DNA of 64,000 nucleotides from Hybos culiciformis (lineage: Eukaryota; Arthropoda; Insecta; Diptera; Hybotidae), in NCBI GenBank assembly GCA_964007475.1, contig OZ023273.1:62065108-62129107 (forward strand). The letters run 5' to 3'. The notes below the pieces were generated by a model that did no database searches, was not told the DNA's origin, and was given only the letters and a program-made list of their open reading frames with translations. A program made the position numbers and the translations under genes. The first letter of the stretch is position 1, and every line of letters starts with the position of its first letter. This document shows positions 2,881-62,902 of the stretch, in pieces.

Positions 2881-10524
<7,644 letters not shown>

Positions 10525-13500: not shown

Positions 13501-15081
13501 AATATTTGAAAATTTTATATGTATTATATTTCTACTCTGAATACAAATAGAAATAAAGTTGTATAAATCGAAGAAGAAAAGTAAAAATATATTATCGACT
13601 ACCATAAGATTTGTTTACATTTTAGTCTTTTGTTTGAGACTAATATAACATTATGTAAAATAAAATCCTCAAAATAAAATCCAAGAAAAATATTGACTTA
13701 AGTAAGCGTGATATATTTTTTCTGATCTTTGTATATGTTATTCTTTTCTATATGATGACGGTAAATTAATTTTATAGACTTTTAGAACGGGTTTGCTTCG
13801 AATTGATAATATATATATATTATCTAGTATATATGTACTAACTATATAAATATAACATTACTTAATATAATTACTCTGCAATAATTTTTGTATACTGTTT
13901 AATGCATTAATAATCAATATAGCAAGGACAACAATATTGCAAGGATTATAAATTAAATAAAAATTATGTATCTTTCTTGATAATTACATAGAAATAAAGT
14001 CGAAATTATAGAAATTTAATATTTTAAATTATTTTTTTAATAAACATCTTTAGTAAGTCACATTTAACATTGATACAAGGCTCTGCTATTACTACAACAT
14101 TATATCTAATAAATAAAGTGATTTATTTGATGTAAATAAATAACGTATTTTATACGAAAGATAGAGTTAGTACCAAAGTTTCAACAATAAGCTGATATTA
14201 TGTGCCCTTTTTTACGCCTTTTTGCATATACTGCATATATATATATTTATATTTTTTTTATTATATAATCAAAACCGGATTACAGAAAAATAATATATAC
14301 CTATTTTTAATTTAAAATAGCCAGCATAAATGACATTTTGAGAATAGTAAAAAAATTGTTATACACTCGATGATGAATTGATATTATTAAAATAATAGAT
14401 TATGATTTCTTTTATTATTAGGTTCTCATTGAAAATGACATTGAAAAATAATTGCTTATCAATTTCAGATATTTTAATGAGAAAATAGTTTCTTTCATAT
14501 CGCTATTTGAATTAAATAGATACATACATAAACCTATTATTATATGTTCTTAAATAATCAAATCAACCCAAATAAAAATATTGAAATCAAAAATTGTAAT
14601 AGACATAAACAATTTGTATTATATATAAAAATCAAATAATACAGGATCGAATATAAAATTAATATAATCAACCGATAAACGGAAAAAACGAAAATTTCAT
14701 ACCAAACCGTAACGATGTTTTCGAGACAGGAAAAAATTCAAATTAAGCTTTATAAAGATTAATTTACGTTTAACAGAACTATAATTACTTAACATCATGC
14801 ATTCAAAATAACAAGAAAATATGAAAATAAGTTAAATTCATGGAACGTAAAAACCTTACGAAAATACTATTCTCCTATCGATCGTAACTCATAATAACCC
14901 TCCTGTTTCTTATTTTTTGCTGTGAATATCGATGTCAATTGTTCTAAATTTATTAGCCTATGGCCTATCTAAAATGATATTTAATTTTTATAATGCAATT
15001 ATGTTTTTGTCAAATATTGTTATCATAAATTTTCTTCAGGTAGGTACTTTTATTTTTAATTTTTTTTTCTCAACAGCTTTA
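10525..15081. other. Spacer between the two ABCC genes
   Basis: The first copy's stop codon is followed directly by about 25 T's (10525-10550), then AATAAA-like motifs near 10563 and 10584 that could serve for polyadenylation. The rest is A+T-rich with no gene I recognise. It contains a degraded inverted-repeat relic at about 11002-11404. The 75-codon open frame at 11506-11733 has no recognisable domain. A GGACGGACAGACGGA motif near 11897 recurs near 36360. The second ABCC gene's ATG follows a splice acceptor (CAG ending at 15076), so its 5' UTR exon may also lie here. Confidence 0.5.
11002..11404. mobile_element. Probable decayed DNA-transposon relic (possibly PIF/Harbinger-like)
   Basis: The segment opens with GGCCGGTTTCCACGATCCAAG followed by repeated CCAAGT/ACTTGG motifs. 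It closes with ACTTGGTCCAAGTGACTTGG, giving inverted similarity between the ends. Between them a short frame from 11247 starts MSKKLINKRKIKWTDRE and stops after about 34 residues. The basic start and K-W-T-D pattern recall the Myb/MADF-type accessory protein of PIF/Harbinger elements, but this is only suggestive. No target-site duplication was found. Confidence 0.35.
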
Positions 15082-23892
<8,811 letters not shown>

Positions 23893-24319
23893 AGTATTTG
23901 AGAATAAAATTAATTTATAATTAATATCAATAATATACTTTTACTGTATGTATCTGTACATAACATTATATTAATAATATAAATAAAATATATTAAATGA
24001 TTTATAAATCTAAACTCTACTCTTTATTTCAATGTTGTCTTTATTTCAATGTATTTATTGATCCTTAAATGGATTCTTACTTCGAATATTATTTGTCTAG
24101 TCTAGTCTTAAAGATTCATATCATAGGCAATCACATCAAATTAGAAAAAAATTGAGAAGTAGTAGGAGTTTGAATAAAATAAAACAAAAATATTTTTTTG
24201 TTGTTGTGCTTAAAAATATTTTGTATCTATGTGGTGAAATTGAGTTCCAACTAAACAAGGTTTCCATAGTTCAATGAATGAAGTACACCACCAGTGTACC
24301 AACAACTTGTTTTGTAATT
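23893..24319. other. 3' flank of ABCC gene 2
   Basis: A+T-rich sequence after the stop codon, with AATAAA-type motifs near 23904 and 23982 that could direct polyadenylation. No coding feature is seen before the retrotransposon relic. Confidence 0.4.
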
Positions 24320-25210
24320 TCAGTTTAACTCCATTGATTCAATCTTATCAACGATATGGGCTTGATTATAATCGTCAGAAAGTTGAAGTAGAAGACATTG
24401 GATTGGAAAGTTGTGCATGTTCAGTCTATTCGAAAAAAAGGCGATAAATGCGATCCCTCTAACTTCAGGCCCATTGCTCTTACTTCTATTCTTTCCAAAG
24501 TAATGGATCCCCCCATTAACAATAAGGTTAAAAAATACCTACAATGCAACAAATTGCTAAGTGACCAGCAATATGGTTTTCGTACGAATAGATCGACTAG
24601 TGACCTGATGACATGCTTATCCCACAAACTCAAAGCCAGTCTTCACAACTCCGGTGAGGCTTGTGTTGTTGCTTTGGATATAGCTAAGGCTTTCGATCAA
24701 GTGTGGCACTCGGCCTTGATTTCTAAAGTCAAATCAATGGGTTACCAAACCCAAGCAATCACCAAACCACCAGCTCTTTAGCATCTCTTAACCGTCGCAA
24801 TGCAGGCGCACTTTCTATTTTTTAAAAATATCTAGTTGGAATATCTAGTGTTCCCTGGAAATAAAGGCCCTACTTCCTCTACTACAAATATTTTCACGTC
24901 AAACAAGTACCGCCTCAACGTCACACACATATTCCGTCAAAAATCCCAGATGTATGAGCTTCGGAGATTCGTTTTCAGTTCGCACCTCGAGAATGTGGAA
25001 TGCTCTTCCATCAAAATTGTTCCCGACAGCTGGCGGATGTTTGATTTACGACTTGCGCCGCTTTAAGATGAGCTTAAATGATTACCGCCTAACTGTCCCA
25101 CTTTTTAATCCCGTCTAAACTTCCTATCCCCATTACCAAATCCATACTTCTTTAAGTATAAAAGGTATCCCACCTACTGATTTGGTAACTTTAATAAATA
25201 AAAAAAATTA
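24320..25210 (+). mobile_element. Non-LTR retrotransposon relic: reverse transcriptase and C-terminus, broken
   Basis: The frame at 24398-24781 reads as the N-terminal part of a Jockey/CR1-type reverse transcriptase: a GDK-DPSNFRPIALTS motif, DQQYGFRTNRST, and then VALDIAKAFDQVWH, the first catalytic-Asp block. The YADD block and most of the palm are missing. About 24890-25110 resembles the element's C-terminal tail in shifted frames (for example CLIYDLRRFKMSLNDYRL). The 3' end runs into AATAAATAAAAAAAATTAAA near 25190-25212. It is 5'-truncated, internally deleted and frameshifted, so it is dead. Placement within the Jockey/CR1 group is approximate. Confidence 0.85.
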
Positions 25211-38529: not shown

Positions 38530-41500
38530 ATGTTAAAAATAACAATATTTCTTTTATTTATATATTTAATTCAAGGTAAGTACAACCAAAATTATTTAAA
38601 TACCACACTAAAAATTTATTGAATTATTCCCTGATTGCCACAGATAGGATAGAAATTAATGAGGAAAATAAAATTTATTAAGAATCGCATTACCAGTTTT
38701 AAAATTCTTTTTTAAGAAATACATATAAATAGAAATAGATTGTTCATATGAATGCTCCTACCTCCATTATAAATGAACTGAATTTAAAAGCCAAAAGACG
38801 TTTCAAATTTAGTCACAAAAAGCCAAAATCATCCTCTAAAATTGAAGTTGCACCTAACATTCTCTTGTGGTATAGAACCACAAATATTTATTTGTAAATG
38901 TAAAAGTTGGAAAAGCTACCTAAAACTATTATTCACTAAGTTAGCCGGCCACAATTTTTATAATTTTTTTTATTTTATTAGAATTTGAAAGAAATATTTT
39001 TTCATACATTTTTCGTCATTTTTTTTTAATTTGAGCACGCTTTAGAACTTCAATTAAAGCGAAATCAAAGTGTTTTAATAAACTTGAGATTGCGAATATG
39101 AGGACTGCATACTGAACTGAAATAAGTTAATTATATTGGAATATAATATTTAATAAAAAATGCCTTTTTCGAGATAAAAAAATCAAAGATATTTTGAATT
39201 CAAGATATTTTTATCTTAATATTTTGTTCTCATATGCCCACATTAGTGAAAACTAAAATAAAACTTCTTTCTGAAAATTTGAAGTAATAACAAAAACAAA
39301 AATTACATCATTTTTATTACCTCACCTAACAATTATTTTAATTACAGAATATGTTGTAGCACAACAACGCTATCCACAGCATTCCCCTCCTAGACGAGGT
39401 GATTATTCCCGGCATAGAGAATTGCCAAAAAGTAAGTGAATTATATTTGATATAAACAGTGCGTATTACCTACTCAAGTATATATATGTTTTTAAATGTT
39501 TAAAATAGATAAATGCTAGGTATTGTAATTTAAATATAAATTCGTTAACAAATGCATTATATATACATAAAGTTCAGCGAAGATGTTTAGAACGCAAATC
39601 TGTGATGCTTTGCGATAACAAATAAGGATCTTGTCTTCGTTATAAAGTACCTATTTCTTTAATATATTTATGTAAGAAAAAATCGTTTTTTTTTCCTAGA
39701 ATATCCCCCTAGAGTTCATCCGTGTGAACATAGTTCATGTTACCCTGCAACAGGAAATTTACTGATTGGCAGAGAGAATCGTCTCACAGCATCATCGTCA
39801 TGTGGTCTTTATGGCCCAGAACGTTTTTGTATTGTCTCTCATTTAGAAGAAAAAAAATGTTTTTTGTGTGATACAAGCCCAGAAACAGCAAATGATCCAT
39901 TAAAAAATCATAGAGTCGGTCAAATAATCTATGCCACAAAACCTGGGTAAGTTAAAAAAAATTCAAATTAATAAAAAGAAATTTGACAAAGAAGGTCTAA
40001 TTTTTTAGAACTTTACATCCTTCTTGGTGGCAGTCAGAGAATGGGAAACAAAATGTAACAATCCAATTAGACCTTGAGGCTGAATTCCATTTCACTCATT
40101 TAATTATTGTATTTTCAACATTTCGACCTGCTGCAATGTTAATAGAGAGGTCTTATGATTTTGGAAAAAGTTGGCACGTCTACAGATATTTCGCTCATAA
40201 TTGTCAGGAGTCATTTCCAAATGTTTCAACAGTATTGCAAGATATTACTGATGTTGTTTGTGACAATAGATATTCTAATGTTGAACCATCAAAAAATGGT
40301 GAAGTAATATTCAGAGTTCTACCTCCAAACATGAAAGTTGAAAATCCGTATGCACAGCACGTTCAAAATATGCTCAAGATGACAAATTTGAGAATTAATT
40401 TTACCAAATTACATAATTTAGGTGATACGCTTTTAGATGATCGACAAGAAATTCAAGAAAAATATTACTATGGCATAAGTAACATGGTTGTCAGAGGGTC
40501 CTGTTCTTGTTACGGACATGCATCGCGATGTTTACCATTAGACGGTGCGAACGTCAATGAATATGACATGGTACATGGGCGATGTGAATGTACTCACAAC
40601 ACAAAAGGTTTAAATTGTGAGGAATGTGAAGATTTTTTTAATGATTTACCATGGAAGCCGGCTTTAGGAAAACAAACTAATGCTTGCAAACGCTGTAATT
40701 GCAATAATCATGCGACAAGTTGTCACTTTAATCAAGCAGTTTATAACCACTCAGGAAGTGTAAGTGGTGGAGTTTGCGATAATTGTCAACATAACACACA
40801 AGGGCAGCATTGTGAAGAGTGCATACCATTCTTTTACAGAGATCCCAATCAAGATATACAAAGTCCACACGTATGTCGGTCTTGTGATTGTGATCCTCAT
40901 GGATCACTAGATGCTGGCATATGTGATTCAATAAGTGATCCGGAAAACGGAATTGAAGCTGGGGCTTGTCATTGCAAACAAAACGTTAAAGGTAGACGAT
41001 GTGATACTTGCAAGGACGGAACTTGGAACTTAGATCCAAATGATCCGTTAGGATGTTTAAACTGCACTTGTAACACATTGGGAACTGTTGATAATTCCGG
41101 TTGCAATATGTTTTCTGGTGAATGCATTTGTAAACGCTTGGTAACTGGTAAAGACTGTAATCAGTGCTTGCCAGAGACATATGGTTTATCGAAGAGTCAA
41201 GACGGTTGTGCAATGTGCGAATGTGATCCTGGTGGTTCTTTGGATAATTTTTGTGACGTATTTAGTGGGCAATGTAAATGTAGGTCACATATGCACGGAA
41301 GAACCTGCAATATACCTACGCAGTTATATTTTGTTCCTTCTCTTCACATGGTTTATGAAGCAGAGTCTCCAGAAGTTACTGAATGTCTATCATTTTCTTC
41401 ATTTGGAGTAAGTTGAAATATTTCAAACAATAATGCATCAAAATAATTTTTTCTTTTTAAGAATTGTACAGTAATACCTTATCAACCACCAATTGATAGA

Positions 41501-44500
41501 GAACCCGAATGGACAGGACCAGGTTACACACGAGTACCCGAGGGCTCTGAATTAGAAGTAACAGTAGATGGCGTACCAACAACTATGACTTATGATATTG
41601 TGGTAAGATACTTAACACAAACAAGAGGTGATTGGGAAGATGCTCGAATAACAATTATACGTCCAGAGGAATTTGATCCAAATGGAATATGCGCAAATTC
41701 GTATCCAAGCACTGAACAAAGGGTACCTTTTAATCTGCCAGAGCACCAAACTTATGTTGTAGCTTTGAATAATGTTTGCTTGGAACAAGGCAAAATGTAC
41801 AAATTCAAAATACATTTTGAGAGGCACCGCAGCAATGAAGATAACCCAGCTGCACAAATCCTTATAGATTCAGTAAGTTCATTACCTAGTCAAGATTAAT
41901 TAACTTTTTTAATTATCACACCATAACTCTCACGAAATATGGGAGTTTTGACACAAAGCCATTAACCATTATGACAGAACTCTTATTTCAATAAATGGCA
42001 TAATTTCTAAAAAAAGTCACAACGATATTTCGGTGATGTGGAAGTTATGACATAATGTCATATCTCCCACTCAAAAAATGATACAAGTCCCATTTAATTT
42101 CTATGTCCTCTTAAAGAAAATATTAAAACAAGAATTTAGTGCAGGATACTTAAAAATAATGTACGAATAATGTACGACGTAATTACATATAATAAGTTAA
42201 AAAGAATAATTTATAAAATAATTATACAATTGATAAACATATCTTAAAGCAAAAGAAAAATTACATATTGTAAATAATTTTAATGGGCATGTGATCGATA
42301 TGTTGTATTTAGTACCATAGAATTTAGATCACTAAATGGAATATTATATGCGTCAATACACATGCAATCATTTAGATGCGTCAGCGTAAATAATGAAATC
42401 ATTTAGATGCATCAGCGTGAATAATGAAATCATTTAGATGCATCAGCGTAAATAATGAGAACATCTCACAATATTTCAATACAGACAAATACCAACAAAA
42501 AATGAAAAAAAAAATGTGTATATCAACTTTTGTTTTTTTTTTTGCATTGCAAATGTATAGACTGCAACTACCTCTCACATGCACATTAAAACAGTATATA
42601 AGATATGTTAACAAAATTTGTTATACAACTCGTTTTGTATTTACACAAAAACACATAGACACTTGTCAATTTATATCACTTGACCTAACGGTCTCGTTAT
42701 ATAAGTATTGACTCGTGTCAATGTGTTTTTGTGTATACAGAACTCGTAATTAATAACAAATTTAGTTAACATATATAATAATCTACTATTTGCTTCAATT
42801 TAAACAACTTTTCTTTTGCTTTTATAGATAAAAAATTAAAATTTAATTATATATATATTAATAATATTAATACGTGATTTTCTTTCCGTGTCAATTCTGG
42901 CTTTATTTCGTAACCAAATTGAACATTTTTTTTTTTATGAAAAGATGACAAGTAGGTAGTACAAGTTTTATAGAAATTTCTTTGTGAACAAAAAAGTTGT
43001 CTTCCGCGTTTAATTAATTTTAAATTGTTTTTTCTGCTACAAAAACAAATATATGAACATTGTTCCGTCGAAATCATAGTCGATTAAAAAGTATCTCGAT
43101 TACTAGTAAAATTAAAAATATACAATTTAAAGAACATTTGGATCGAACTTCAAATCTCAAAATGACTCAAAGAACCATGGCCATAAAATTATTTATAACC
43201 ATAAAAATATTAACAATAATAATAATTTCAAATCATAGCTCAAACTAAAGTGTATATTAATTTTTTTTTTAAAGTAGGAATCGTCGTATACTTTATTTCA
43301 ACCCTCGAACTTTTTCTTCTTTATTTCAAATCTCAGACTAAAAATTTTAAATGAAGCAATGATTAAGATCATAATCGAAAGCTTATCTCTGGAATCACTA
43401 GATAAATTTACTTCCTTTATTGTTATTCTAATTGAAACATTCATGAACCCAACTGATATTTATACTTTTATTACAGTTAGCATTAATTCCACGAATTGAA
43501 GTTACACCAATATTTAAGAATGATCCAATGGGTGAAACTAGGCGCAGAGAATACATGGAACTTGGATGTAATCAGACCTATTACGATGTCAATTATGATA
43601 CTAAAACGCATCCTCAGTGCAAAGATTATTTAAACACAGTAAGTATTTATGTTTTCGATGGAGCAACACCGTGTAATTGTAATCCCACTGGATCAAAAAG
43701 CAAGCAATGTGATCAATTCGGCGGACATTGTCATTGTAAAACAAACGTAGTAGGAAGACAGTGTGAAAAATGTGCACCGGGAACATATGGGTTCGGACCA
43801 GAAGGTTGTAAAGGTACATAAAAATTAGAAGTCATATAAAGTTTTGTTTGGAAACAACTTTAAAACAATTTATGTTTCATTGTAGCATGTGATTGTGACA
43901 GCATAGGATCTAGAGACAACGATTGTGACCTAAAAACAGGACAATGTAATTGCCATCCCAATACATATGGCCGTGAATGTAATCAATGTCAGCCAGGATT
44001 TTGGGACTTCCCAAACTGTCAAATGTGCCAGTGCAATGGCCATGCACATTCCTGTGATTCTAGAACAGGGAACTGCTTAAATTGTATGGATTTCACTAAT
44101 GGTTACAATTGCGATACATGTGTAGAAGGATATTACGGTAACCCATTACTGGGAAGTGAAATTGGCTGCCGGCCATGTCGTTGCCCAGATACGTTGCAAT
44201 CAGGACATTCACATGCCGACATATGTAAATTAGATTATGGCACAAACGATATGATTTGCTATTGTAAAGAAGGATATTCTGGATCAAGATGTGACATTTG
44301 CGCAGACAACTATTTTGGTAATCCTGAGGAGCCAGGTGGTATTTGTCAAAAGTGTAATTGTAGCAATAACATTAATTTATATGAAGTCAATAATTGCGAT
44401 GGAAAATCTGGTCAATGTCAAAAATGCTTATTTGATACAACTGGAGATCACTGCGAGTTCTGTAGAGATGGTTTCTATGGCAACGCTTTGTTGCAGAATT

Positions 44501-47500
44501 GTAGACGTTGCGACTGTAACATTTTGGGAACAAATTCTACAATTCAATATTGTAATAGAATAACTGGACAATGCCCGTGTTTAGCTAATGTCCAAGGATT
44601 AAGATGTGACGAATGTAAAACTAATCATTGGAAAATTGCAAGCGGAGAAGGATGTGAACCATGCGATTGTGACGCCAATGGAGCAGAATCGGATCAATGT
44701 AATCCGGTACGGTTATATAAAGTATGTATTAGTGAAAATTATATTTTTTATTTATTTTTTTAGTACGAAGGGCAATGCTTATGTAGGGAAGGTTTCGGAG
44801 GTAGAAAATGCGACCAGTGCCAATCAAATTATTGGGGAAACCCGAATGTAGAATGTTACGGTTCGTTTTTTAAATCGTTGAATATTAAAGTGTTAACACA
44901 ACATTATATTTTTAATTTTTAGAGTGTAAATGTGATCCGTACGGTTCAGCCAATTCCCAATGTAATCGAGAAACTGGAGAATGTGTTTGCCATCAAGGAA
45001 TCGGAGGATACAAATGTGATCAATGTGCCCGTGGCTATCTCGGTGAAGCACCATATTGTTCACCATGTGGTGAATGCTTCGATAACTGGGATGACATTCT
45101 GAGAGAATTAGAGGCAGAAACTAAAGAAACAATTGAACGAGCTAAACAAATAAAAATTGTTGGGGCCACGGGGGCATACACAGCTGACTTTACATCAATG
45201 GATTCGAAATTGAAATCGGTACAGCAGCTTCTCGATAATACCACTATTAGTGCTTCAGATATAACTAATTTAGAGACAAGAGTAGAATCATTAAAAAAAT
45301 CTTTAAAAGATTCTCAACAAGAGCTACAGGAAGCTGAAAGTATTTTAACAGAAGTCCATTCAAATGTCAGTTTATCTACAGCGCAATTAGATAATCTAAG
45401 AAATCAAACAGAGTATGTTCGAAATTTCTCTAATCAACTGAAAGAAAATGGAACTCAACTTCAAGAATCAAATATAGAAGGAGCATTAACATTTACCAGA
45501 GAGGCTCTACAAAGAACTGAGGCATTATCTGGTGTCCACGAAGAAGCTCAACAACATAGTGAAAATGCTGAACGTCAGTGCAAAAGAACTGAAGTTTCAG
45601 TTAATCGTAATAAAGATGATTTTAAGCAATTGTTAATTCAAAATGATGACACTCTTAGAGATTATGGAATTCAACTTAACCTTTTGAGAGATAATTTACC
45701 AGATTTAAATAATAATATATGTGATAAACGTGGTAACCCTTGTGACAATATATGTGGAGGGGCAGGTTGTGGAACATGTGGTGGTTTATCTTGTGAAAAA
45801 GGAGCTCTCACTAGGGCAGAAAAAGCCCTAAAAGTAGCCAAAGAGGCTGAAGATGAAATTAGAAACAAAAAAGAAGATGCTGATAATATAATTCGTTCAT
45901 TTTCACAAGCAAAAACCAATGCATCAGAGGCCTACGAACGAGCTCATGAAGCATTCGAAGATGCTAAACGATACTTAAATCGCACAAACGAATATATAAC
46001 AATCGGTGATGAATTGGTTTCTGAATTAAATAATATTATTACAAACACTACAGCTTCACCAGATGAAATCAGAGATTTAGCAGAGAAAACATTGGCTCTT
46101 GACCTTCATTTGAATCCTGATGCAATTAATAAATTAGGGACTCAAATAAATGTTGCAGTGTCTTCATTACAAGACGTTGAACAAATTATACATAACACAC
46201 GTTTTGATTTGGACAAAGTAGAAAGATTGAAGCAAAAAGCTAATGAAACAAAAAATCGTGCAGACGAAATTTTGAATACAGCAAATTCAGTTGTAAAAGC
46301 GTTGAATGAAGCAGATACTGCTCAAGCTAAAGCACATAATGCAATCAAACAAGCAAACAGTGATATAGCTTTAGCCAAAGAAGATTTAGATAAGGTAAAC
46401 TTAAAATAATACAATTGAAATTCTTGAAATAATAATTATGCATTACAAATTCTAGATCGACCACGAAACTACAGAAGCTCAACAACCAGCTAATAAGACT
46501 AGCGAACAAGTTAATCAACTTATTAGGAAATTAAACAGATTACAGAAAAATATAGTTCAAAAGGAAATCGATGCAAAAGATATAAAAAATCGAACATTAC
46601 TAGTTCGAGAATCGGCTAGCAATGCTCACGAGTTAGCATCCAAGGTAAAATACAATTACATATTTGTTTTATTATTTTTTTCAAGTGAACTTATTTATTT
46701 AGCTGAAGAATAAATATGGTACTGCAAATGATTCATTGATAATTAAAGCCAGAACCTCAGAAACAGCACGTGAGAGAGCTCAACAATTGCTTCAAAGAGC
46801 TTCAAAAATTACTATTGGAACAAGCGAACAACTTAAAGAGTTGAAAGGCAAGTACAAAATGCTAGCGTTAATTACCAACTGAATCTGAGAACTTTATATT
46901 GTAATATTTTTTGTGTGTTTCAAACATTATAAAAAAATGTAGTTTCAAATTACTTAAGAACAGGCAGAAAAGTCAAATGAAATTAACAAACTGCGAAAAT
47001 GCAAAAAGATGTACTCCCTAGGACGGATCCAACAAATATTGTTACTTTTTCAACATTCTACTTATTTGGGTCAAAATAAATATTAATTGTAGCTATAACT
47101 TCAATGACCATTTTTCTGAGGTATTTTCAATATGTTTTCAATTCTTGTTGTTGCAAAAATAAAGAATGTTTCTATTTAGTTCGTTCGTTCATTAGTTTAA
47201 CTTTACTTTTATAAATAGCTTAAAATTTATAAGAAGAAACAATTTTCCAGAAATAAAAACATTAGGTATAATTATTATAATATAGTCTTAAATCAAAAAG
47301 AATAATTAGTTTATTTAGCTAAATTAAATAAAGAGGGCTTTCCAGCTCACTAATAACTATTAAACTGCCGATTTCACTCGTTTGAATGCGAAACATGTTC
47401 ATGTTCTTCACTTAAGCGAAACGACGAGATTGGATAGTTACAAAAGTAGTAGGCATCAACTGATCAAGATTAAAAAGGATTAATGCTAAAAAAGATAACG

Positions 47501-51129: not shown

Positions 51130-54100
51130 TTACGCTTCGATTAATGATGCTCGAAGTTTCGTAGACACACTTGCTGGCTGTGCTTGATTTAATTTGAAAA
51201 CGCTTTCAATAACTGAAATTTCTGTTGCTGTTGTACTCATTCCACAAAAGGCAGCCCAATCGTTAACGACCATACCAGCTGCAAGCACTTCACTACCTCT
51301 ATTAACTGTACCGGAAACAAGTGGGACTTGTAGCAGTAATGAGAGCTCATCTAAATCTTGTGTTGTAGTTTTAGGATGAACTAAGCCACCTTGATTGCTT
51401 AGTACTGTATATGAGCCTACTAGAGTATTTCCTGCAACAGCTTGCCTAAAAACTTCAACGTCCAGAGTGTCACCAATAATTTCTTCAGTTTCCTTGAAAT
51501 AATTAAGCAATGTGTTTCATTATTGGGTAAAATAAAATTAGATTCTACTAGAAATTTCAATTTAATTCATGTTTTAATAAAATCGTTGATCATTTGTTTA
51601 AGATGCAATATATTATATTTCTGATTAAAATTCTCTTTCTTTTTTATGAAAATTTTCAAATTTACATATTCATTGTTGAAAACATTATAAGTAAATTATA
51701 AAATATGTATGTCTATAAATATATTTTCGCTAAATTTTTGGTAATTATACAGAATTTAATTCCGGAGTACTTTTGAGTAGCTTTTGGTTCTTGATATAAT
51801 TATATATAATAGATGTATTTTTTCGAAAGCCTTTGTATTTTAATGTATGGCTTGGAGTCCTTAAAATGCCTTCAAAAGTTTTACCATTAAAGCTTCTTAA
51901 AATTATTTATTAAATTGATGGTTTTTATTCAATAAATTTAAAAAATACTAAAATTGATTTTTGATCATAATTCGCATTTTTTCCCAGACCCTATCAACCT
52001 ATCAAAGAAATTACCAAAATATGTGCAGCGATATTATCATCTTTTCTGGAAAAACTGATAAACAAGTAATTTAATGTAAGAGTAGCAACGGCCTCAATAA
52101 AAAATCATTCCCATTCAGAAATCCGAAGATAGAACAAATTAATTACATTAATTAATAACAATTTTATCATTATTTTCAAAATATTCGAAGTAAAAACCAT
52201 AGCTAAAAGAAATATATATAAATAATTCGCCTACTTAATATAAAGAAGCTGAATCTGAGCATATTGGAAACATTAATGAACAATTACCTAAATAAAATAT
52301 ACAATTGGGCTAGCAATAATTTTAACAAAACCGAAATCATAATTTTTCAATATTAAATGCAATACTTCGAATATAATTAAGTATAACAGTAATTGAATCA
52401 GTCAACATTTTTTCATATCTTGCATTAAACAGCGATCAAATCTAAGCATTTTTTTTTTATTAAATTCCAAACAATTAAAAAAAATAATTACTACTCTGTG
52501 TTTGTTAATTAAATACAAACAATATTCTTTCCCCTGTTTTTAGGACAACATTTGATTATTAAATGGAAGAAAATACAGAGATTACAAAATAAAGCTTAAT
52601 TATCCCACTCAGAATAAATATATAATGAACTGAAAGCACAAGACAACTACAACATCTTCTAAGAGAAAAAATCCTAAACCCGTCAGGATTTAGAATTAAA
52701 TCGTTGGTTTTTACAAGATACCGGAAGATACCGGAAGATATGAAATTATAAGGTTAAAAACGATTTAAAGTAAAAATAAAAAAATTTGTTAGCAAGAAGA
52801 TACAATGAAGTACAACGTCGTCGCCTTCAAGAAATACTTAATTAATACTTAATTAATCATAAAATTTCCATATTCCCATCCGAACATATCGCAAGCGAAT
52901 AGTTTATCGAATCATAAAAACTTATTACATCAGTAAACGTTTTCCGTTGAAGAAACCGAAACACTGTCTTCGCAGCAATTAGAGGCCCAAGTAACTTGAA
53001 TTGCTTAATTTATGTCTAGTCCATATTTACCTTATCTATGTCCGGATGTACAAGGGCAACATAATCATTGCATGCAACGACATTGCCTAATGCCGACAAT
53101 CTTTCTTCAATTCGTTGCACTTTAACTTGATCCGGTAAACTATTTCGAATGTGTTGTAATTCTACATCTGTTGTTGAACTGGGCACTAATAATCCATTTT
53201 TATTTCCGACTATTAATCGACCAATAATTCTGCAACCACCAATACTGGTATGAATTACTGGAATGGTTTCTGCCAATTCAGCTTCAAAAACGCTTAAAAA
53301 AATAAAAAATACATAAATGAAATGTTGTTATGTGTAATTTTACAATTAGAAGTTTTTCACTCTTCAATTACTAGGTAGGTTGTGTTAGGTTGTAACAGAT
53401 CGGGAATGTCCAGATTCCCTTGCTGTTAGGCCTATTGGACCGTTGTACAACCCTACTCGATGGACCATTCCACACCTTTTACAAACCTAATTATTCTCAG
53501 ACCTGTAAAAATTATTTCCCAAATATTCTTACCCCTCTGGCTCGTATCGTTTGGTACTGACAGAGCACGTGAAGAACTGTTTCCGGCTTCTCTCCAAATT
53601 CCCGTATCGACTCACCCCCTCCCGGAACTCGTGGTTCCTGGAAAAGTGAAAGTAGTCACAGGTTAGTCTTATCAAGACTTATTACCTGTTTAGACTTCCC
53701 CTTTACCTTATTACTAAGTGAGCCGAAACCCCGAACTCTAAATCCCACAATATTAAAATTAAGAACAAAATTTCATAAATTATCAAAAAATGAATTTTAG
53801 GCTTCGCAAAAACACAAAACAGCTCGGTATAAGGAAAATTTTCGATTCTTAGATAAAAATCGGCAACGGAAAATAGTTATATATAGGCCTAGGAACCTAT
53901 CTAGGTACTTAAAATATTTAAATAAATTTGGACCTTTAAATGGATTTTGGTTTGTTGATTGTGTGCCTAGGTAAGTCAAGGGAGATGGTAATCAACTTAC
54001 GTTACGAGTTACAACACCAATTAATTAGGTAGTTACGTTAACTTTTCAACTTTTTATTATGAAAGTAATAGTAGGTAGGTATACCTACCTTCTTTCTTTT

Positions 54101-55299: not shown

Positions 55300-55854
55300 G
55301 GTACCGTAAAAACCGTTTTTCTATGTTATTATTTTATTTATATTTAAGCAAATTTACTGAAAATGAAGATATTAATTTTATCTATTTTTCGTAAAAAGAA
55401 CTTTTTAAAAATATTTTCAAATAACTAAGAAAATTGAATTTATTTTTTTTTTGATATCTGAAAAATTTCATTACTTCACAAAATTATTTTTTTGTTTCTT
55501 TTTCATTACGTTTCCTACCTATCATAATATTTTTTTACGATACCTTTCCTGTCAAAAATTTTTTTTTTGTTTTTTTTATATTTTTTGCAGTTGATTTTTT
55601 ACTTAGATAAAAATTAGATATACATGAAGCTAGCCAAAGAAATTGCATAAACCCAGCCAAAGATCGTTGCGCAACGTTCTTCAAAAAAATTGTTTTTTTT
55701 TATTTTAAACCTTTTAAGGTCTTAAAATCAATAATTTTAACTAAAATAAGATGTTTTTGATCATTTTGGATCAAAAAAATTAATAATCCAGTACAAAAAA
55801 GTAGTTTTTGTCAAGGATATATTTTTACTCACATGGAAACCTTCCGTTACCCTG

Positions 55855-56100
55855 CGTGGCCATCGAAGCCACTTTGTTGGAAGTTGGACTGTACTCTAGC
55901 CCACACTTCCCCATCATTAAGATTTCATTATCAGTTGGAAGTTCTATAAAATTCCAAGAAAACTTTTTTTTTTTCATATTTTTGATAGAAACCCCCACTT
56001 TTAGTCCGTGGCCATCGACGCCACTTTGCTGGAAGTTGGGCTGTACTCTAACACACACTTCCCCATCATCAGGATTTCAATATCAGTTGAAAGTTCTATA
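55855..56100 (-). repeat. Subrepeat array in left TIR, 2 copies
   Basis: Two tandem ~150-bp units, in inverse orientation to the five-copy array of the right TIR. The 97-codon frame at 55808-56101 is an artefact of this repeat. Confidence 0.85.
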
Positions 56101-56367
56101 AAATTCCCTTTTAATCCCAAATCCTGGATTGAAAAAAAGGTTTCCTGATTTGTTGCTTGGTCGTTGCATGATTTTTTTTGGTTAGCATTAAAGAGTCAAC
56201 TTTTTTTGTTATTGTCTTCTTTAAATGACATTCCAATTTACTTGTCAGTTTCTTTGTTTATTTACATTTGAAAAATTAAATAATAAATTGAAATAGTTTT
56301 AATCTTTTAATTTTTAATTCCATTGAAAAAAAATTTTTAAATTTGAAATTAACGTCAACACCATTTT

Positions 56368-56950
56368 TAGCAAAAATTCAAGACGATGATGAAACTACAA
56401 ATAAAACATCAATGTCGGATTTCGAACTGGATGAAGTCGATTTAATCGAATGTCTATTGAGGACCAAATATAATACAAAGAATATAGTAAATACGGAATT
56501 TTAAATTTATTTTAATTATTTTATATTTATCTTTTTTTATTTGATTTTAGTTATATTTTTGATACATTGAAACTATCAGACAACACTGTAGTTATATCAT
56601 GTTCTAAAATATTAATTCGTATTGCCCGAACGAATAAAGATAGTGCATTTAAAATTGTCTCTAATCAGGGCTTGATGAATTGTCTTTTTGAAAATTTCCT
56701 ACCACCATTAGATAAAATTGGTAATTTTTATATTATGAACATTATGATTGATACTAATAGTTAATAAATATTTTTTTGTTTAATAAATCCGAATAAGACA
56801 GAAGCTGATATGTATCATTTTCCACAATATCTTTTGCTGAAATTATTTCGGGTGTTAATGGCACAACACATTTCGATTTGCATAAAATTATCATCGACAG
56901 ACCTAATTGATAGAATAAACAGTTACTTATTCCCAAATCATGATATTCAG
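56368..56950 (+). pseudogene. RPAP1: RPAP1-like gene fragment captured inside a transposon
   Basis: Three exon-like blocks in one orientation. About 56370-56487 encodes a stretch including FELDEVDLIECLLRTKYN. About 56552-56721 encodes KLSDNTVVISCSKILIRIAR and then QGLMNCLFENFLPP. About 56796-56950 encodes EADMYHFPQYLLLKLFRVLM, ending before a GTAAAT donor. This order (ILIRIAR, FENFLP, KLFRVL) matches my recollection of the C-terminal helical part of RNA polymerase II-associated protein 1, whose normal length is over 1000 aa. Intron-like sequences with TTTTAG or AATAAG acceptors separate the blocks, so the source was genomic DNA, not mRNA. It has no start and no continuation, and is certainly not a whole gene. 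The family call needs a protein search. Confidence 0.6.
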
Positions 56951-57237
56951 GTAAATAGTTCCAGAAATTAAGACTAGAAAAACGAGCTTAATTTTGATTT
57001 ATTTCATCAGAATTCTGAGAATGTTGAATTTTGTGTACACTATTCTAAAGGAACTCTGCTTCCAGAAATTTATTAAAAGTATAAAATGATACGTTATATT
57101 TATATTGTCAAATTTATCCATGAGAAAAAAGAATACATTTTCAATTATAGTATTTTCTTATATTAACTGACGGTAAAGAATTGACAACGTAAACTTTTAC
57201 TAATGCTGTCTAAATTGAAATTTTTATATCGTTTTAG

Positions 57238-58330
57238 GCCAAAATCAAGTCACAATTATGAAAAAAAAACTGCCCTTATTGTTTTCGAAATATATATTAG
57301 AAAAAATGTGGTCAATCAGAAATTGTGCTTTAATTGATATGAAAGTTGAATTCGGCGTAGATGAAAATGGTTAGTACCAAAGTTAATTTTTAACGAGCAT
57401 TAAATGAGCTTTGCATTCAAATTTCTAAGAAGATTTTTCAATAGAGAAACTCTTCGTTTATTAAAGTTTTTCGAGGAACAATAACTAAAGACAAAATGAT
57501 TTTCAAGATATTTAAAAGATATCTACTAGCATTCTTTCACTTATTTGATAATAAAATTATCTTTTTCGTTATAGAAATAAATTTTATGCTAATGATTTCT
57601 GACCGTCTAGTTAATTAATATTTTTGACCAACTCTACATATAATCATTATTTTTTAATGCTTAATTTTATTTTTTTTTTTCAAAAGATTTCTAGGACAGC
57701 TTTTATTAGCTGATATTATTGATTCAGGTTCATGGCATCTTTGGCCATCCGGTGATAAACGATTGATGTTTATCGTAATCCAAGTGAAGTTACTTCATCT
57801 GATTTAGATACAGTTATGAAAAATTTCCATTGCGTTTCCGATCAAATGGATAATATTATTCCAAAAGGAAACGATCATTCGGTTGTTATAATGATGGGAT
57901 CTGATTCTGAATATTGTGAAAAAATTCTAAAATATTGTACAAATTTTGGTATTAATCGGCACATAAATCTACTAAAGATACATTGAGAATTATGCAAGAA
58001 TACGAAGGTACTGTGAGTCAACTTATTTTTATTGGTGCTGCAGGACGATCAAATGGCTTGGGACAGTTTTATCTGGTAATACAACATATCCAGTTATTAA
58101 TTCATCACCTGTTAATAATGATAATATTGAACAAGATATTTGGTCTAGCTTGAATGTACCATCTGGTTTGGGATGTGTTACTGCTCGTTATCGAGAAACG
58201 GCTGCATTAAATGTAGCTCAAATTTTGAGTTTAACTAATTATGTTATATGGGGAACATTGCGTGTGAATCAATTGAAACATCTTGTAAATATTTTCAATG
58301 TCGACGAACTTGTTAGTTCTTTTTTATATT
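57238..58330 (+). pseudogene. PAICS: PAICS C-terminal fragment, frameshifted, captured inside a transposon
   Basis: PAICS is the bifunctional purine enzyme with SAICAR synthetase (N-terminal) and AIR carboxylase (C-terminal) domains. Here the match starts late in the synthetase domain (RNCALIDMKVEFGVDENG, 57325-57368). It continues after an intron with [20 protein letters not shown] (about 57698-57757), then the carboxylase part: VVIMMGSDSEYCEKILKYC, AAGRSNGLG, NTTYPVINSSP and DIWSSLNVPSGLGC, up to about 58314 before a GTTAGT donor. At least four breaks are visible: near 57300, 57770 (short deletion), 57960 (loss around the AHK motif) and 58060. The N-terminal two-fifths is absent from the window. 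It is a non-functional captured fragment. Confidence 0.85.
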
Positions 58331-60228
58331 TTTTTTTAATAATTATGCATTTATATACTTTATAAAATCATGAAAATAATAAAATTTAAAATGTTTTCTC
58401 TTTAATTGTTGATTTTTTTGAGCTTATTTGTGTATACTGTAAGTTAGAAAATGTGACTGTTTCAAAATGAACACAATTTCTTCTAAAATAATAGTCCCAA
58501 TTTCTAAAAGACTTTTGCACTGGAGAAATAAACAATGACAGAATAGCAGTAGTTTTTAATAAATTCACTCAAAACAATAAAATTAAAGGGACTTATTTAA
58601 CTTTTAAAATCAACGGCTACATAAATGATTTCTAGTTTTCAACAATATTTATTATATAGAAAAACTTTTTTTAAAAACCAGCTTTTATATCCTTTTGTAA
58701 CCCATAACAATAAATAAGGACAGAAAAATTTAATTTAAACATAATTTTTTAACTTAGAATAATAAACAATAATATCTCTGGAGGAAATTATTTAATTTTT
58801 TATTCTTGATCAAGGATATACAACTAATATGAACTCCGTTACGAATGACCTAAAAATACAATATTAACGTTAAATCAAAGGTACAACGAAAGCAGGGCAT
58901 TTTAAAGCTATTTCTAGTCTAAACGATGAAGAGAGATGTATGATAATTTCACTAATCCAGAAGTTAGCTTTTATTTTTATTGGCGAACAATTTTTTGTTA
59001 GTCTGATTTGTAAAGAAATTTTATTAAAGACTATTTAATAATTTTGCATTGAACAAAACAAAATTTGACCATGGTTTGTTTATAAAAATATCCAATCCAA
59101 ATAAATTTTTCTTATTTAAAAAAAAAAATCTTAAGAACCAGAATTTATTGTCGCCACGTTCAGATAAGAATAGAAAAACTTTTTAGAATTTGAAAATTTT
59201 ATCTTTTAAAATAAATATATATAAGTATATTATAATATTAATATTGTATTTCCAATAAAAAAGATATTCAATATAATATTGAAATTTATGTACAATTTTC
59301 ATCAGATTGTTGGCCTTGCACTTTATTTTTCAGTTCATATGAATTCATACAAAATTTGCCTTAAAGGTAACATTAAAAATAACAATCAGGGTTGCGGAAT
59401 GGCGCCTGCCTTCTGTTGAGCGAAATTTAAAGTTAAATAATTTGTTTTTCCAGTCGATTTACAGTACTTTTAGGCTCTTAGACATAAATGGTTCTAAAAA
59501 GAAGTTTTGCGACTTTGCTTGATGTATATGCAATAAAATCTTTTATGGATGCGAAAAGTGGAACTAGAAATGGACGCATCGTATATGATGTTAGAAAATT
59601 ACCTTACATGTTGTTTCCATATTTACTCAAATTTCTAAAATTTTTCTATTAAATAAAAAATATTATCTTGTAGATACTAATATTGAATATACTTATTAAT
59701 ATTGAATATATGCATAATTAATTTCTCCAATAAATTAATGATAACAAAGTAGATACGAAGCTACTGAACTATTTAAAAAAGATCAAAAAGTGAACAATAC
59801 TAAATACACGAGAAGTCAAAATGCAAAAAATGGTAATTTTGAACTGTTTCTTATATTTCTAAGGAAAATTTCAACACTTTCTTTCATCGCAGTGCAGCAG
59901 CAGTATTAAAGGTTCTAAAATTATTTTTTTTTGTTTCAGAAAATTCTACAACTTGGCATTAAATAAATTTCTGGAAAACAATTTTTCTCAAAATTCATCT
60001 TGAGAAATTTTTTTTTTAAACTCGAAAAATTAATCATTTCTATAATTTGCACACTTGTATGTAATACAGAATATGAAGATCAATTTTATGCACGTAAAAT
60101 ATAGGCAATTCTCAAAAAAAACTTTAAATAACATTTATTGGATATGAATAATTATACATGTGGGGGATATTTCTGAAAGGGAGGCGTCAGAAAAAATGAT
60201 GTTCATATCACCTTATGGTACTTTAGGA
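58331..60228. other. Uncharacterised filler inside the Pack-type element
   Basis: Mostly A+T-rich. One short frame at about 59491-59652 (starting MVLKRSFATLLDVYAIKSFM, about 54 codons) has a less biased composition than its surroundings and might be a further captured exon, but I recognise no family. Confidence 0.3.
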
Positions 60229-60712
60229 CCCGTGGACTCAGAATATAATTGTCGTTATATACGCAAATGCCATCTAGTCTGAAAAATGCAACTGAACTTT
60301 TTTTTTTTAAATCCGGTTTTTGAAATTTTCTCCATAGCGGTAATTCCAAAATCCCTGATTTCCTTTTGCAGAAGGATGTTGTTCTAATTACTTTTTTTAA
60401 AAAAGTTCTCACAACTTTCTCCTTTTGTAAAAATCAAGTTTTGGATAGATTCATTTGCCGTTTCATAAACATAAGGTAAAAAGGTGCAATAGACAAACAA
60501 GGATATAATCGCAATTTACTCCGAAGTCCTTAAAGATTTTTAAATTTTTTTTGGTAAATTTGTACAATTTTATTATCTATATTTAAAAAAAATCAAGGAT
60601 TTCAAAATTGCAAAAAACCGATTTTTCAAAAAAAAAAATTCAATTGCATTTTTCGTCCATTATATGGCATTTTCTGGTATAACGACATATGTATTCGAGT
60701 CCATTTAAACTT
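60229..60712. mobile_element. Foldback MITE nested in the Pack-type element
   Basis: About 60229-60365 (GTGGACTCAGAATATAATTG, ATGCCATCTAGTCTGAAAAA) is the imperfect reverse complement of about 60580-60712 (ATTATATGGCATTTTCTGG, GTATTCGAGTCCAT). Arms are about 130 bp with a 210-bp spacer. No duplication is clear. Confidence 0.7.
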
Positions 60713-61019
60713 TTTATTATTTTATATTCTAGAAAGCTTTATTAAAAAAAACATTTGTTTTGTGATTTATATTTTAATTTTATGGAATTAAAAATTAAAA
60801 GATTAAGAAAGACGATTTCAAATCATTATTTAATTTTTCAAATGTAAATAAAAAATAAACAAAGAAACTGACAAAAAAATTGGAATGTCATTTAAAGAAG
60901 ACAATAACAAAAAAAGTTGACTCTTAAATGCTAACCAAAAAAAATCATGCAACGCACAAACAACAAATCAGAAAACCTTTTTTCAATCCAGGATTTGGGA
61001 TTAAAAGGGAATTTTATAG

Positions 61020-61745
61020 AACTTTCAACTGATAATGAAATCTTAATGATGAGGAAGTGTGGGCTAGAGTACAGCCCAACTTCCAGCAAAGTGGCGTCGA
61101 TGGCCACGGACTAAAAGTGGAGGTTTCTATCAAAAATATGAAGAAAAAAAAAGTTTTCTTGGAATTTTATAGAACTTCCAACTGATAATGAAATCTTAAT
61201 GATGAGGAAGTGTGGGCTAGAGTACAGCCCAACTTCCAGCAAAGTGGCGTCGATGGCCACGGACTAAAAGTGGAGGTTTCTATCAAAAATATGAAGAAAA
61301 AAAAAGTTTTCTTGGAATTTTATAGAACTTCCAACTGATAATGAAATCTTAATGATGAGGAAGTGTGGGCTAGAGTACAGTCCAACTTCCAGCAAAGTGG
61401 CGTCGATGGCCACGGACTAAAAGTGGAGGTTTCTATCAAAAATATGAAAAAAAAAAGTTTTCTTGGAATTCTATAGAAGTTTCAACTGATAATGAAATCT
61501 TAATGATAGGGAAGTGTGGGCTAGAGTACAGTCCAACTTCCAGCAAAGTGGCGTCGATGGCCACGGACTAAAAGTGGAGGTTTCTATCAAAAATATGAAA
61601 AAAAAAAAGTTTTCTTGGAATTTTATAGAACTTCCAACTGATAATGAAATCTTAATGATGGGGAAGTGTGGGCTAGAGTACAGTCCAACTTCCAACAAAG
61701 TGGCTTCGATGGCCACGCAGGGTAACGGAAGGTTTCCATGTGAGT
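61020..61745 (+). repeat. Subrepeat array in right TIR, 5 copies
   Basis: Five head-to-tail units of about 150 bp, starting near 61021, 61174, 61326, 61477 and 61627, each with AACTGATAATGAAATCTTAA, GTGTGGGCTAGAGTACAG and GGCGTCGATGGCCACGGAC. The unit nearest the terminus differs (CTTCGATGGCCACGCAGGG), as does the corresponding unit of the left TIR. Confidence 0.9.
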
Positions 61746-62129
61746 AAAAATATATCCTTGACAAAAACTACTTTTTTGTACTGGATTATTAATTTTTTTG
61801 ATCCAAAATGATCAAAAAGATCTTATTTTAGTTAAAATTATTGATTTTAAGACCTTAAAAGGTTTAAAATAAAAAAAAAAAATTTTTTTGAAGAACGTTG
61901 CGCAACGATCTTTGGCTGGCTTTATGCAATTTCTTTGGCTAGCTTCATGTATATAAAAATTAGCTGTGAATAGGTTTCCGGAACATTCCTCCAAAAATTA
62001 CTTTACTGTGGTAAGCTATAAACAACGCATTACTATTATTTCTATGATGCTCACAGCGAAAAAATAAATTTTATTCAACACACTTCCTGATTTTATAAAA
62101 AAAATCTTGTTTTATTTATACCCTTTCTG

Positions 62130-62902
62130 CACTGGCAATACAAAGACGTCTCAAATCAGTCTTTTGAAAAAGTTGTACACACGGCCAAAATCATTTTTTT
62201 GTACTTACTTTTGACAGAAAAAAAAATGTTTCATTGTTTAGGAATTTAATGTTATTTTTGTTTTTATTTTTTTGAGAGACATAAGTGTAACCACCATGAA
62301 ATAATTAATTCAAGGCACAAAAACCACAAATAATAACAACCTACAAGCTACAAAGCGACAAAGTATGTATTTTTAATGCCTTGAGCACAGCTAATACCGC
62401 AAAGCAATTTTTGAAGGAATGTTCCGGAAACCTGTTCACAGCTAATTTTACCTGAAAGCAAAAAAATCAACTGCAAACAACTGCTTATGTTTTTTTTATA
62501 ATATGATTGTGACAGAAAAATGCAGCAAAACCAAATTTCGATGCAAAAGAAACGCTGTGAAAAAGAAACAAAAAAATTATTTTGTGACGTAGTCAATTCT
62601 ATCTGGAGCAAAAAAAAAATAAATTCAGTTTTCTAATTAATTATGAAATAATTTTAAGAAATTCTTTTTACAAAAAATCAATAAAATTAATATCTTTCGT
62701 TTTTCATAATTTTTATTTAAAATAAATAAGAAATAACGCAGAAAATCGGTTTTTACGGTAGCTCAAAATTGCTTTGCGGTATTAGCTGTGCTCAAGATAT
62801 AAGTCTTCTTTCGGTTCTTGCGATTTTTTTTATATGGCAAAAGACGGAAGAGAGCTGAAAGAAAGACGTCTTTCGCAAGAGCCGATATTAAGACTGCCAG
62901 TG
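62130..62902. mobile_element. Possible TIR element with CACTGGCA ends enclosing a smaller element
   Basis: CACTGGCAATACAAAGACG at the left and its rough inverse (AAGACGTCTTTC ... GACTGCCAGTG) at the right bracket the repeat at 62380-62796. The shared end motif is short and no duplication is visible, so this is tentative. Confidence 0.35.
62380..62796. mobile_element. MITE-like element, intact sister of the split copy
   Basis: Starts CTTGAGCACAGCTAATACCG and ends with the inverse, CGGTATTAGCTGTGCTCAAG, giving about 30-bp TIRs (CAAAGCAATTTT included). The interior aligns on the opposite strand with 55300-55617 plus 61955-62013, without the 6.3-kb insertion. No coding frame and no clear target-site duplication. 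Confidence 0.8.

Follow-up and report, generated by a model that had tools for sequence, protein, structure and literature searches.

A shortened, gene-carrying copy of a probable large Mutator/Foldback-type transposon in the fly Hybos culiciformis

How did unspliced pieces of unrelated housekeeping genes come to lie between two long inverted repeats in the genome of a fly? The question is raised by positions 55618–61954 of a 64,000-nucleotide stretch of Hybos culiciformis DNA (assembly GCA_964007475.1, contig OZ023273.1, positions 62,065,108 to 62,129,107; hereafter the window), in which a first-pass annotation had read a Pack-type transposon carrying fragments of two such genes. We searched the genome of origin (342 Mb, 509 contigs, the window being C1:62.07–62.13 Mb) for copies of the element and for the sources of its interior. 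The results support the Pack-type reading and extend it, as the same tips enclose related interiors in two other complete copies, A and B, of about 26.6 kb. We conclude, with a probability of roughly 0.87, that the window element is non-autonomous and descends, by internal deletion, from a large DNA transposon of Mutator/Foldback type.

The bounds of the window element are exact to the base. Its tip, ATATACATGAAG..., starts at 55618, and the reverse complement of the tip ends at 61954. Directly outside are exact 9-bp target-site duplications, AAAAATTAG, at 55609–55617 and 61955–61963. The left terminal inverted repeat (TIR) spans ~717 bp (55618–56334, plus strand); over 712 bp of it, identity to copy A's left arm is 99.6%. 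The right TIR, delimited from the BLAST arm match and the subrepeat array, spans ~1184 bp (60771–61954, minus strand). In BLAST alignments of the two arms, 481 of 497 positions matched in the outer parts (490 bp of that being element), and 466 of 514, with gaps, in the inner parts. The arms contain tandem subrepeats of 153 bp, with 4.7 copies on the right (61008–61717) and ~1.8 on the left, the latter estimated from 55833–56107. Inverted ends, subrepeats and duplication are all as the first-pass annotation had them, and long TIRs of tandem subrepeats with arms of unequal length make this a foldback structure.

Searching the genome with the left arm gave 57 matches (27 candidates scored), in line with a multi-copy family. 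Copy A (C1:76371742–76398338) is 26,597 bp long and flanked by a 9-bp duplication, TACTTGGTC; copy B (C1:79564527–79591206) is 26,680 bp long, with the duplication AAGTCCGAG. The 30-base tips are identical in the window element, A and B, and each of these three complete copies has an exact 9-bp duplication of its own sequence, within the 8–11 bp (mostly 9 bp) of Mutator-like elements (MULEs). The first-pass annotation had considered that the two TIRs might be independent insertions, or that other copies might lack such duplications; the same tip pair at two other sites, each with its own duplication, contradicts both.

How does the short copy relate to the large ones? A and B are 96.9–99.6% identical, gap-free, over four blocks. 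The window copy is 99.6–99.8% identical to A in the three main interior blocks and 97.3–98.5% in the right-arm blocks. Absent from it are A 4566–19536 (14.97 kb), with the bases AAG common to both deletion edges, approximately A 20933–24226 (3.3 kb), and ~32 bases near A 3712–3742. The junction of the 14.97-kb deletion falls at 59364–59367, where window 59366 corresponds to A 4565 and window 59364 to A 19534. By these alignments, the window copy is a shortened, internally deleted relative of the 26.6-kb A and B. The adjoining segment, 59364–60761 (plus strand), is common to the large copies (A 19534–20932; 99.8% to A) and also resembles DNA at C2:26.126 Mb and C392:265 kb. Inside the element, a dispersed 471-bp palindromic repeat (60233–60703) has more than 20 partial genome copies at 71–83%.

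Other copies are partial or diverged. On C452, a tip lies within ~10 kb of each contig end and the copy is incomplete; the C27 copy is without its tip; and diverged pieces of the element occur at C1:91.69 and on C2 and C3. The flanks at C505 and C1:72.77 Mb are alike (97.7% over 1.4 kb), so these look like two alleles of one insertion. One of the two stretches (C505:1–8000, L018; C1:72.77 Mb, L015) has a left-type arm and the other a right-type arm, and the element perhaps differs between alleles by inversion or rearrangement.

To judge from sequence comparison, the interiors of A and B include unspliced genomic pieces of four host loci whose originals are still elsewhere: RPAP1, the 3' flank of bin3/MEPCE, PAICS and DNA ligase 3. 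Three of the parental loci (RPAP1, bin3/MEPCE and PAICS) are on C2, and that of ligase 3 is on C1, 60 Mb off. The intact PAICS and RPAP1 loci (C2, 53.16 and 43.02 Mb) do not flank the window site in this genome. The first-pass annotation had seen unspliced, decayed RPAP1 and PAICS fragments, and these stand. It had listed two genes in the interior, and here it fell short, missing the bin3/MEPCE 3'-flank piece, the piece from downstream of ligase 3 and the 26.6-kb parent form. Host gene pieces between TIRs, with parents elsewhere, are a mark of Pack-MULEs and Pack-TIRs, and the family has it, four parental loci having been found. Pack elements are further marked by the lack of a transposase in the cargo-bearing copy, which holds for the window copy and fails for A and B. 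The window copy is taken to be without transposase because its longest interior frame, of 129 codons, belongs to PAICS.

The cargo begins with the unspliced middle part of RPAP1 (56341–57011, plus strand), 95.9% identical over 691 bp to the host gene (L046, C2:43.02 Mb); its counterpart, A 1508–2178, matches the same locus at 96.0%, gap-free, over 671 bp. Exons lie near 56380–56490, 56550–56720 and 56800–56950 (plus strand; limits by eye from frames). This fragment alone gave no Pfam and no PDB match. We call it RPAP1 because the host gene is collinear with it and because the host stretch is also matched, in its 5' part, near A's other arm on the opposite strand (A 21570–24263, 89–94%), where a frame of the large copy gave Pfam RPAP1_N at 1.1e-8. 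Later exons of the host locus were judged to be RPAP1 by eye, and two frames tried there were unconfirmed by Pfam. The host stretch has two tandem RPAP1 copies with an N gap between them, which may be an assembly duplication. Within the captured RPAP1 5' part of copy A, ~0.8 kb (A 22790–23587, C1:76.394 Mb) is absent from B and has CTGATGAG at both edges, as if it had been inserted later and had duplicated 8 bp of its target.

Next comes DNA (57017–57170, plus strand) that in the host lies immediately 3' of a methyltransferase gene like bin3/MEPCE. Its counterpart in A matches 148 of 151 aligned bases at the host locus (L048, C2:71.6865 Mb), and the host gene beside it gave Pfam Bin3 at 1e-25. 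The PAICS piece (57171–58531, plus strand) comprises the 3' half of the gene with an intron and the 3' flank, 93.1% identical, gap-free, to the host (L045, C2:53.163 Mb). The alignment spans exon, intron with splice borders, exon and 3' flank, which bears out the earlier idea of genomic, unspliced capture. The element's PAICS has deletions and has lost its frame; it still matched Pfam SAICAR_synt (6.7e-5) and AIRC (6.9e-10), and the joined fragments matched the solved PAICS 4ja0 at 1.7e-65. Among 40 of 313 candidates scored, PAICS DNA was found in the window, A, B and the host only.

The last identified piece (58636–59366, plus strand) is DNA downstream of DNA ligase 3, 94% identical to C1:2.562 Mb (L049). 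The ligase exons themselves lie in the stretch that the window copy lacks. In copy A the match runs 4.15 kb, into the ligase exons, with 3,850 of 3,993 aligned bases identical; in the fetched host stretch, matching ends upstream of A 7940. Frames of A gave Pfam zf-PARP (1.6e-10), DNA_ligase_A_N (7e-8, 3.3e-4 and 0.057) and the catalytic end (1.5e-14), the last matching solved DNA ligase 3 at 1.8e-65. The ligase end was found in A, B, the host and one distant ligase only (5 of 5 candidates scored). A further 3-kb segment, A 17986–20877, resembles C2:26.126 Mb at 85–89%, and no named gene was identified in it. An Rfam scan of the window gave no match, and viral contigs yielded no relative of the RPAP1 fragment or of the transposase-like protein described next.

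The first-pass annotation had suggested a partner with the same ends and a transposase; A and B, each with a transposase-like gene, are good candidates. Copy A has a stop-free frame of 1,399 codons, whose last 1,013 residues matched Pfam Peptidase_C48 at 1.3e-9. A C-terminal Cys-rich finger is visible by eye, without a Pfam match. Protein-database searches, in which the ~8,000 candidates sharing most words were scored, gave a sole relative, a metagenome protein of 1,479 aa (P0121; 31% identical, 4.6e-52); a search with the alignment of this pair gave no relative among ~8,000 candidates scored. P0121 has a YqaJ-like nuclease/recombinase domain (6e-16) and a PHD finger match below cut-off (0.0012). 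Conserved in both proteins are a D, a second D 72 residues on, a C-C-x-H motif, and an E 230 residues after the second D. The D–D spacing falls inside the 60–76 range given in the available text of an arthropod MULE survey (PMC13359780). From the D-D-C-H-E pattern, the place of the gene in the element and the 9-bp duplications, we infer that the 1,399-codon product is a transposase, one that matches no curated transposase model.

Several observations weigh against this assignment or against the reading as a whole. The counterpart open reading frames (ORFs) in B and C27 are interrupted. Read over 1,392 residues, the ORF gave no Pfam match even with E values up to 1 allowed, and the 1,013-residue part matched C48 alone, with no Pfam transposase model and no NCBIfam match. 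A ZSWIM RNase-H-like match was seen in P0121 alone and is weak (0.055), and the D-to-E distance of 230 exceeds the maximum of 214 in the same survey text (PMC13359780). An AlphaFold model of the catalytic region (two sequences) had a predicted local distance difference test score of 36.7 and was not used. The right end of A and B is rearranged, with a truncated right arm, ~1.4 kb and then a left-type arm; the window right arm is simple, which rules out A and B in their present form as the source of the window copy. Finally, the 6.3-kb form was found once only.

Long TIRs occur in Polinton-type, P/Galileo-type and Mutator-type elements. Could the large form then be a virus-like, self-synthesising (Polinton-type) element or a P/Galileo-type foldback? 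The ORF's failure to match any MULE model and the YqaJ recombinase domain of P0121 would suit such an origin, as would a sub-threshold DNA_pol_B_exo1 match (0.016), but the frame giving that match is the RPAP1_N frame. P-superfamily elements (Galileo) make 7–8-bp duplications and have a THAP domain; here the duplications are 9 bp, and no THAP match was found by Pfam in the scanned copy A frames. A C48 domain is present in some MULEs and counts against a Polinton or Galileo affinity. No capsid or accepted polymerase match was obtained in 7 of copy A's 10 frames of at least 90 codons (six scanned, PAICS via its window counterpart). Together with a D–D spacing in the MULE range (PMC13359780, available text) and the 9-bp duplications, these data make either affinity unlikely.

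The joins between the cargo pieces bear on how host DNA entered the element. Bases CAT are common to both sides of the TIR–RPAP1 join; ~six filler bases lie beside a common TTATTTCA at the RPAP1–bin3 join; bin3 and PAICS have at most one base in common; and some tens of bases matched to neither lie between PAICS and LIG3. These joins, few and read without a chance model, fit repair or replication with template switching, a route proposed for animal Pack-TIRs in the accessible part of PMC8277862. For most single-copy animal Pack-TIRs, that text (Tan et al.) infers gap filling. An old TIR element might likewise have broken at the window site and been patched with host DNA in place, independently of transposition. 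Microhomology and filler at some joins would agree with this, as would the single finding of the 6.3-kb form. But the cargo order RPAP1/bin3/PAICS/LIG3 is the same in the window, A and B, and the two other sites have other exact 9-bp duplications; the cargo therefore moved after capture. Gap filling is thus refuted for the cargo as a whole, and we consider it very unlikely as the explanation of this locus; it may still describe the first entry of each piece.

Under the Mutator/Foldback-type reading, the 1,399-residue protein would act on the long arms, making 9-bp staggered cuts, and host DNA would be added one piece at a time, through template switches while the element is repaired or replicated. 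The short window form would have arisen by a microhomology-type deletion and would rely on the large form for movement. It may have moved as such or may have shrunk in place after insertion.

The distribution of the pieces favours a stepwise history. In the stretches retrieved, the RPAP1 piece also occurs on C27, on C505 and twice on C452, whereas PAICS has the narrower range given above. Its end varies within ~14 bases among different copies, after which the continuations differ. C27 was considered as a state preceding later captures and rejected. It lacks the part from A 2178 to 8603 and carries the ligase 5' part (with exons) joined to RPAP1, which makes it a deletion form and not an ancestor. 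Dating by cargo divergence was likewise dropped, as the pieces differ (PAICS 92–93%, LIG3 96%, RPAP1 89–96%, bin3 98%).

Might the cargo be kept for a function in the element, with ligase 3 the obvious case, rather than as passenger DNA? Exons for the zinc finger, the N-terminal part and the catalytic C-terminal part of the ligase are present in copy A, and in A and B alike the last ligase frame stays open for 235 codons. That frame breaks off, however, where the host continues to 390 codons. PAICS has lost its frame, the RME-8 cargo of a second family (see below) is decayed, the window copy has lost ligase exons, and C27 has lost the 2178–8603 part. A function for the cargo thus has only a slim chance of being correct. 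As for unrelated nested repeats plus segmental duplication, the region is repeat-rich and an older palindromic repeat surrounds the element, but the identical 30-base tips, exact 9-bp duplications and common interior of three complete copies refute this account and leave it a negligible probability.

We also looked beyond this family. The transposase-like ORF has at least 55 matches in the genome, 31–100% identical (33 of 1,249 candidates scored). Copy A has a second gene of 137 codons, whose product is by eye a coiled coil followed by an Arg-Gly-Tyr-rich part; it has 32 matches in the genome (69 of 69 candidates scored). A has one copy of this gene; in C27 there are two, both pointing the same way. 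At eight loci, a related transposase is flanked by two copies of the second gene, one on the minus and one on the plus strand, which face outward and are 14–31 kb apart: C402 (18.7 kb), C487 (18.7 kb; apparently the same element as the former), C2:29.85 Mb (30.9 kb), a second locus on C402 (19.7 kb), C1:75.78 (15.7 kb), C390 (16.9 kb), C1:81.21 (16.1 kb) and C499 (14.3 kb). These spans are between second-gene copies, not tips, and the eight loci become seven if two contigs are alleles.

The cargo was read in one of the eight. On C402, 3 kb read from between the transposase and the distal second-gene copy contain collinear N-terminal exons of RME-8/DNAJC13 (PF19432 at 2.1e-16, 2.3e-5 and 0.012). 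The fragment is unspliced and decayed, with an intron kept, stops and frameshifts; against PDB it gave no real match. The same DNA occurs in C487 and C2:29.855 (100%) and in part in C499 (97%) and C274 (96%; 40 of 631 candidates scored), and is common to four of the eight loci. A likely parent is C2:99.285 Mb, where an 83% match covers roughly the RME-8 part and no more. RPAP1, bin3, PAICS and LIG3 in one family and RME-8 in another mean that different families carry different host genes, as the first-pass annotation had envisaged. These data tip the balance, modestly, towards a broader proposal. The genome would host an expanded lineage of giant Mutator/Foldback-type transposons, 14–31 kb long or longer, that are built alike. 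Each would have a C48-bearing transposase and a small second gene, often as two copies facing outward. Downstream of the transposase would follow a cargo zone, in which unspliced fragments of host genes accumulate, different ones in different families. Such a lineage would shuffle genes in an animal with a transposase of its own, and would also give rise to short, non-autonomous carriers of cargo, in a self-contained system.

The older palindromic repeat into which the window element is inserted has outer arms at 55302–55617 and 62442–62760 (~320 bp, 73% as inverse copies). DNA at 61956–62449 is self-complementary (59%), and a 32-bp stretch at 62380–62411 recurs inverted at 62765–62796. Farther off, the window has two tandem ABC-transporter genes of multidrug-resistance-protein type (4890–10524 and 14932–23892; by eye from frames, with Pfam on one frame), a short frame resembling, by eye, a non-LTR (long terminal repeat) retrotransposon reverse transcriptase (24398–24781), a laminin beta-1-like gene (40136–46409; best match in the sand fly Phlebotomus papatasi, 78%) and, on the minus strand, an eIF6 gene (51130–53276).

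How does the element compare with known systems? FB/NOF elements have long TIRs with tandem subrepeats and 8–10-bp duplications, as here. Tetris also has such TIRs and 8–10-bp duplications; it differs in that the part of PMC4079207 consulted describes no captured genes and gives its transposase as unknown. Arthropod MULEs, Rehavkus among them, have 9-bp duplications and, in some cases, long TIRs, up to 1,193 bp in the survey (PMC13359780, PMC6446971; available text). According to PMC6446971, Rehavkus has a zinc finger and a minisatellite near the 3' TIR. The finger of its transposase is of the PHD type; here there is a Cys-rich finger, by eye, in A, the sub-threshold PHD match in P0121 and a subrepeat array in the arm. 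For an aphid MULE, the main text of PMC8201860 does not use the terms captured, Pack-MULE or gene fragment. Ising TE of Drosophila similarly moves large DNA between foldback ends, but hundreds of kb between foldback transposons, as excerpted in PMC6431247, whereas here one family-specific tip pair surrounds assembled pieces. Plant Pack-MULEs resemble our elements in that TIR-bounded host gene pieces move as a unit; they differ in that those reported stay within the 7 kb of the full-length element, are mostly 1–2 kb, and move in trans, and transposition efficiency drops above ~6 kb of cargo (same source, in part).

Gene-capturing TIR elements are thus already known, animals included. The accessible part of PMC8277862 reports 370 Pack-TIRs in 100 animals, with none in its insect reference genomes and no Pack-MULE in any of its reference genomes; in Drosophila melanogaster populations, it describes Ssk-FB4 as a Pack-MULE, one polymorphic Foldback family. 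Among the matches listed, open-licence titles and abstract openings gave no transposase-bearing multi-gene foldback in an animal. In H. culiciformis, a 26.6-kb element with a four-locus cargo is present at two sites, near-identical and with exact duplications, and the same assembly contains its parental loci, incomplete relatives and a shortened derivative. One animal genome thus allows direct tests of the order of captures, of what microhomology contributes and of what large size costs. At 26.6 kb and 1,399 codons, with a C48 domain, it exceeds the complete arthropod MULEs of the survey (1.4–10.0 kb, single ORFs up to 1136 aa; PMC13359780, text as available). A close likeness is to Ssk-FB4, which, in the text seen, has Foldback TIRs of several hundred bp with repeats, 9–10-bp duplications, a genomic host gene and several copies with different duplications (PMC8277862). 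The idea of an undescribed gene-shuffling system must therefore be narrowed, as animal capture by Foldback/MULE-like elements has been described before. Yet Ssk-FB4 carries one gene, and FB4 is non-autonomous with an unknown transposase (same text); here the element is larger and multi-gene, with DNA of four host loci in 26.6 kb and a transposase-like gene inside.

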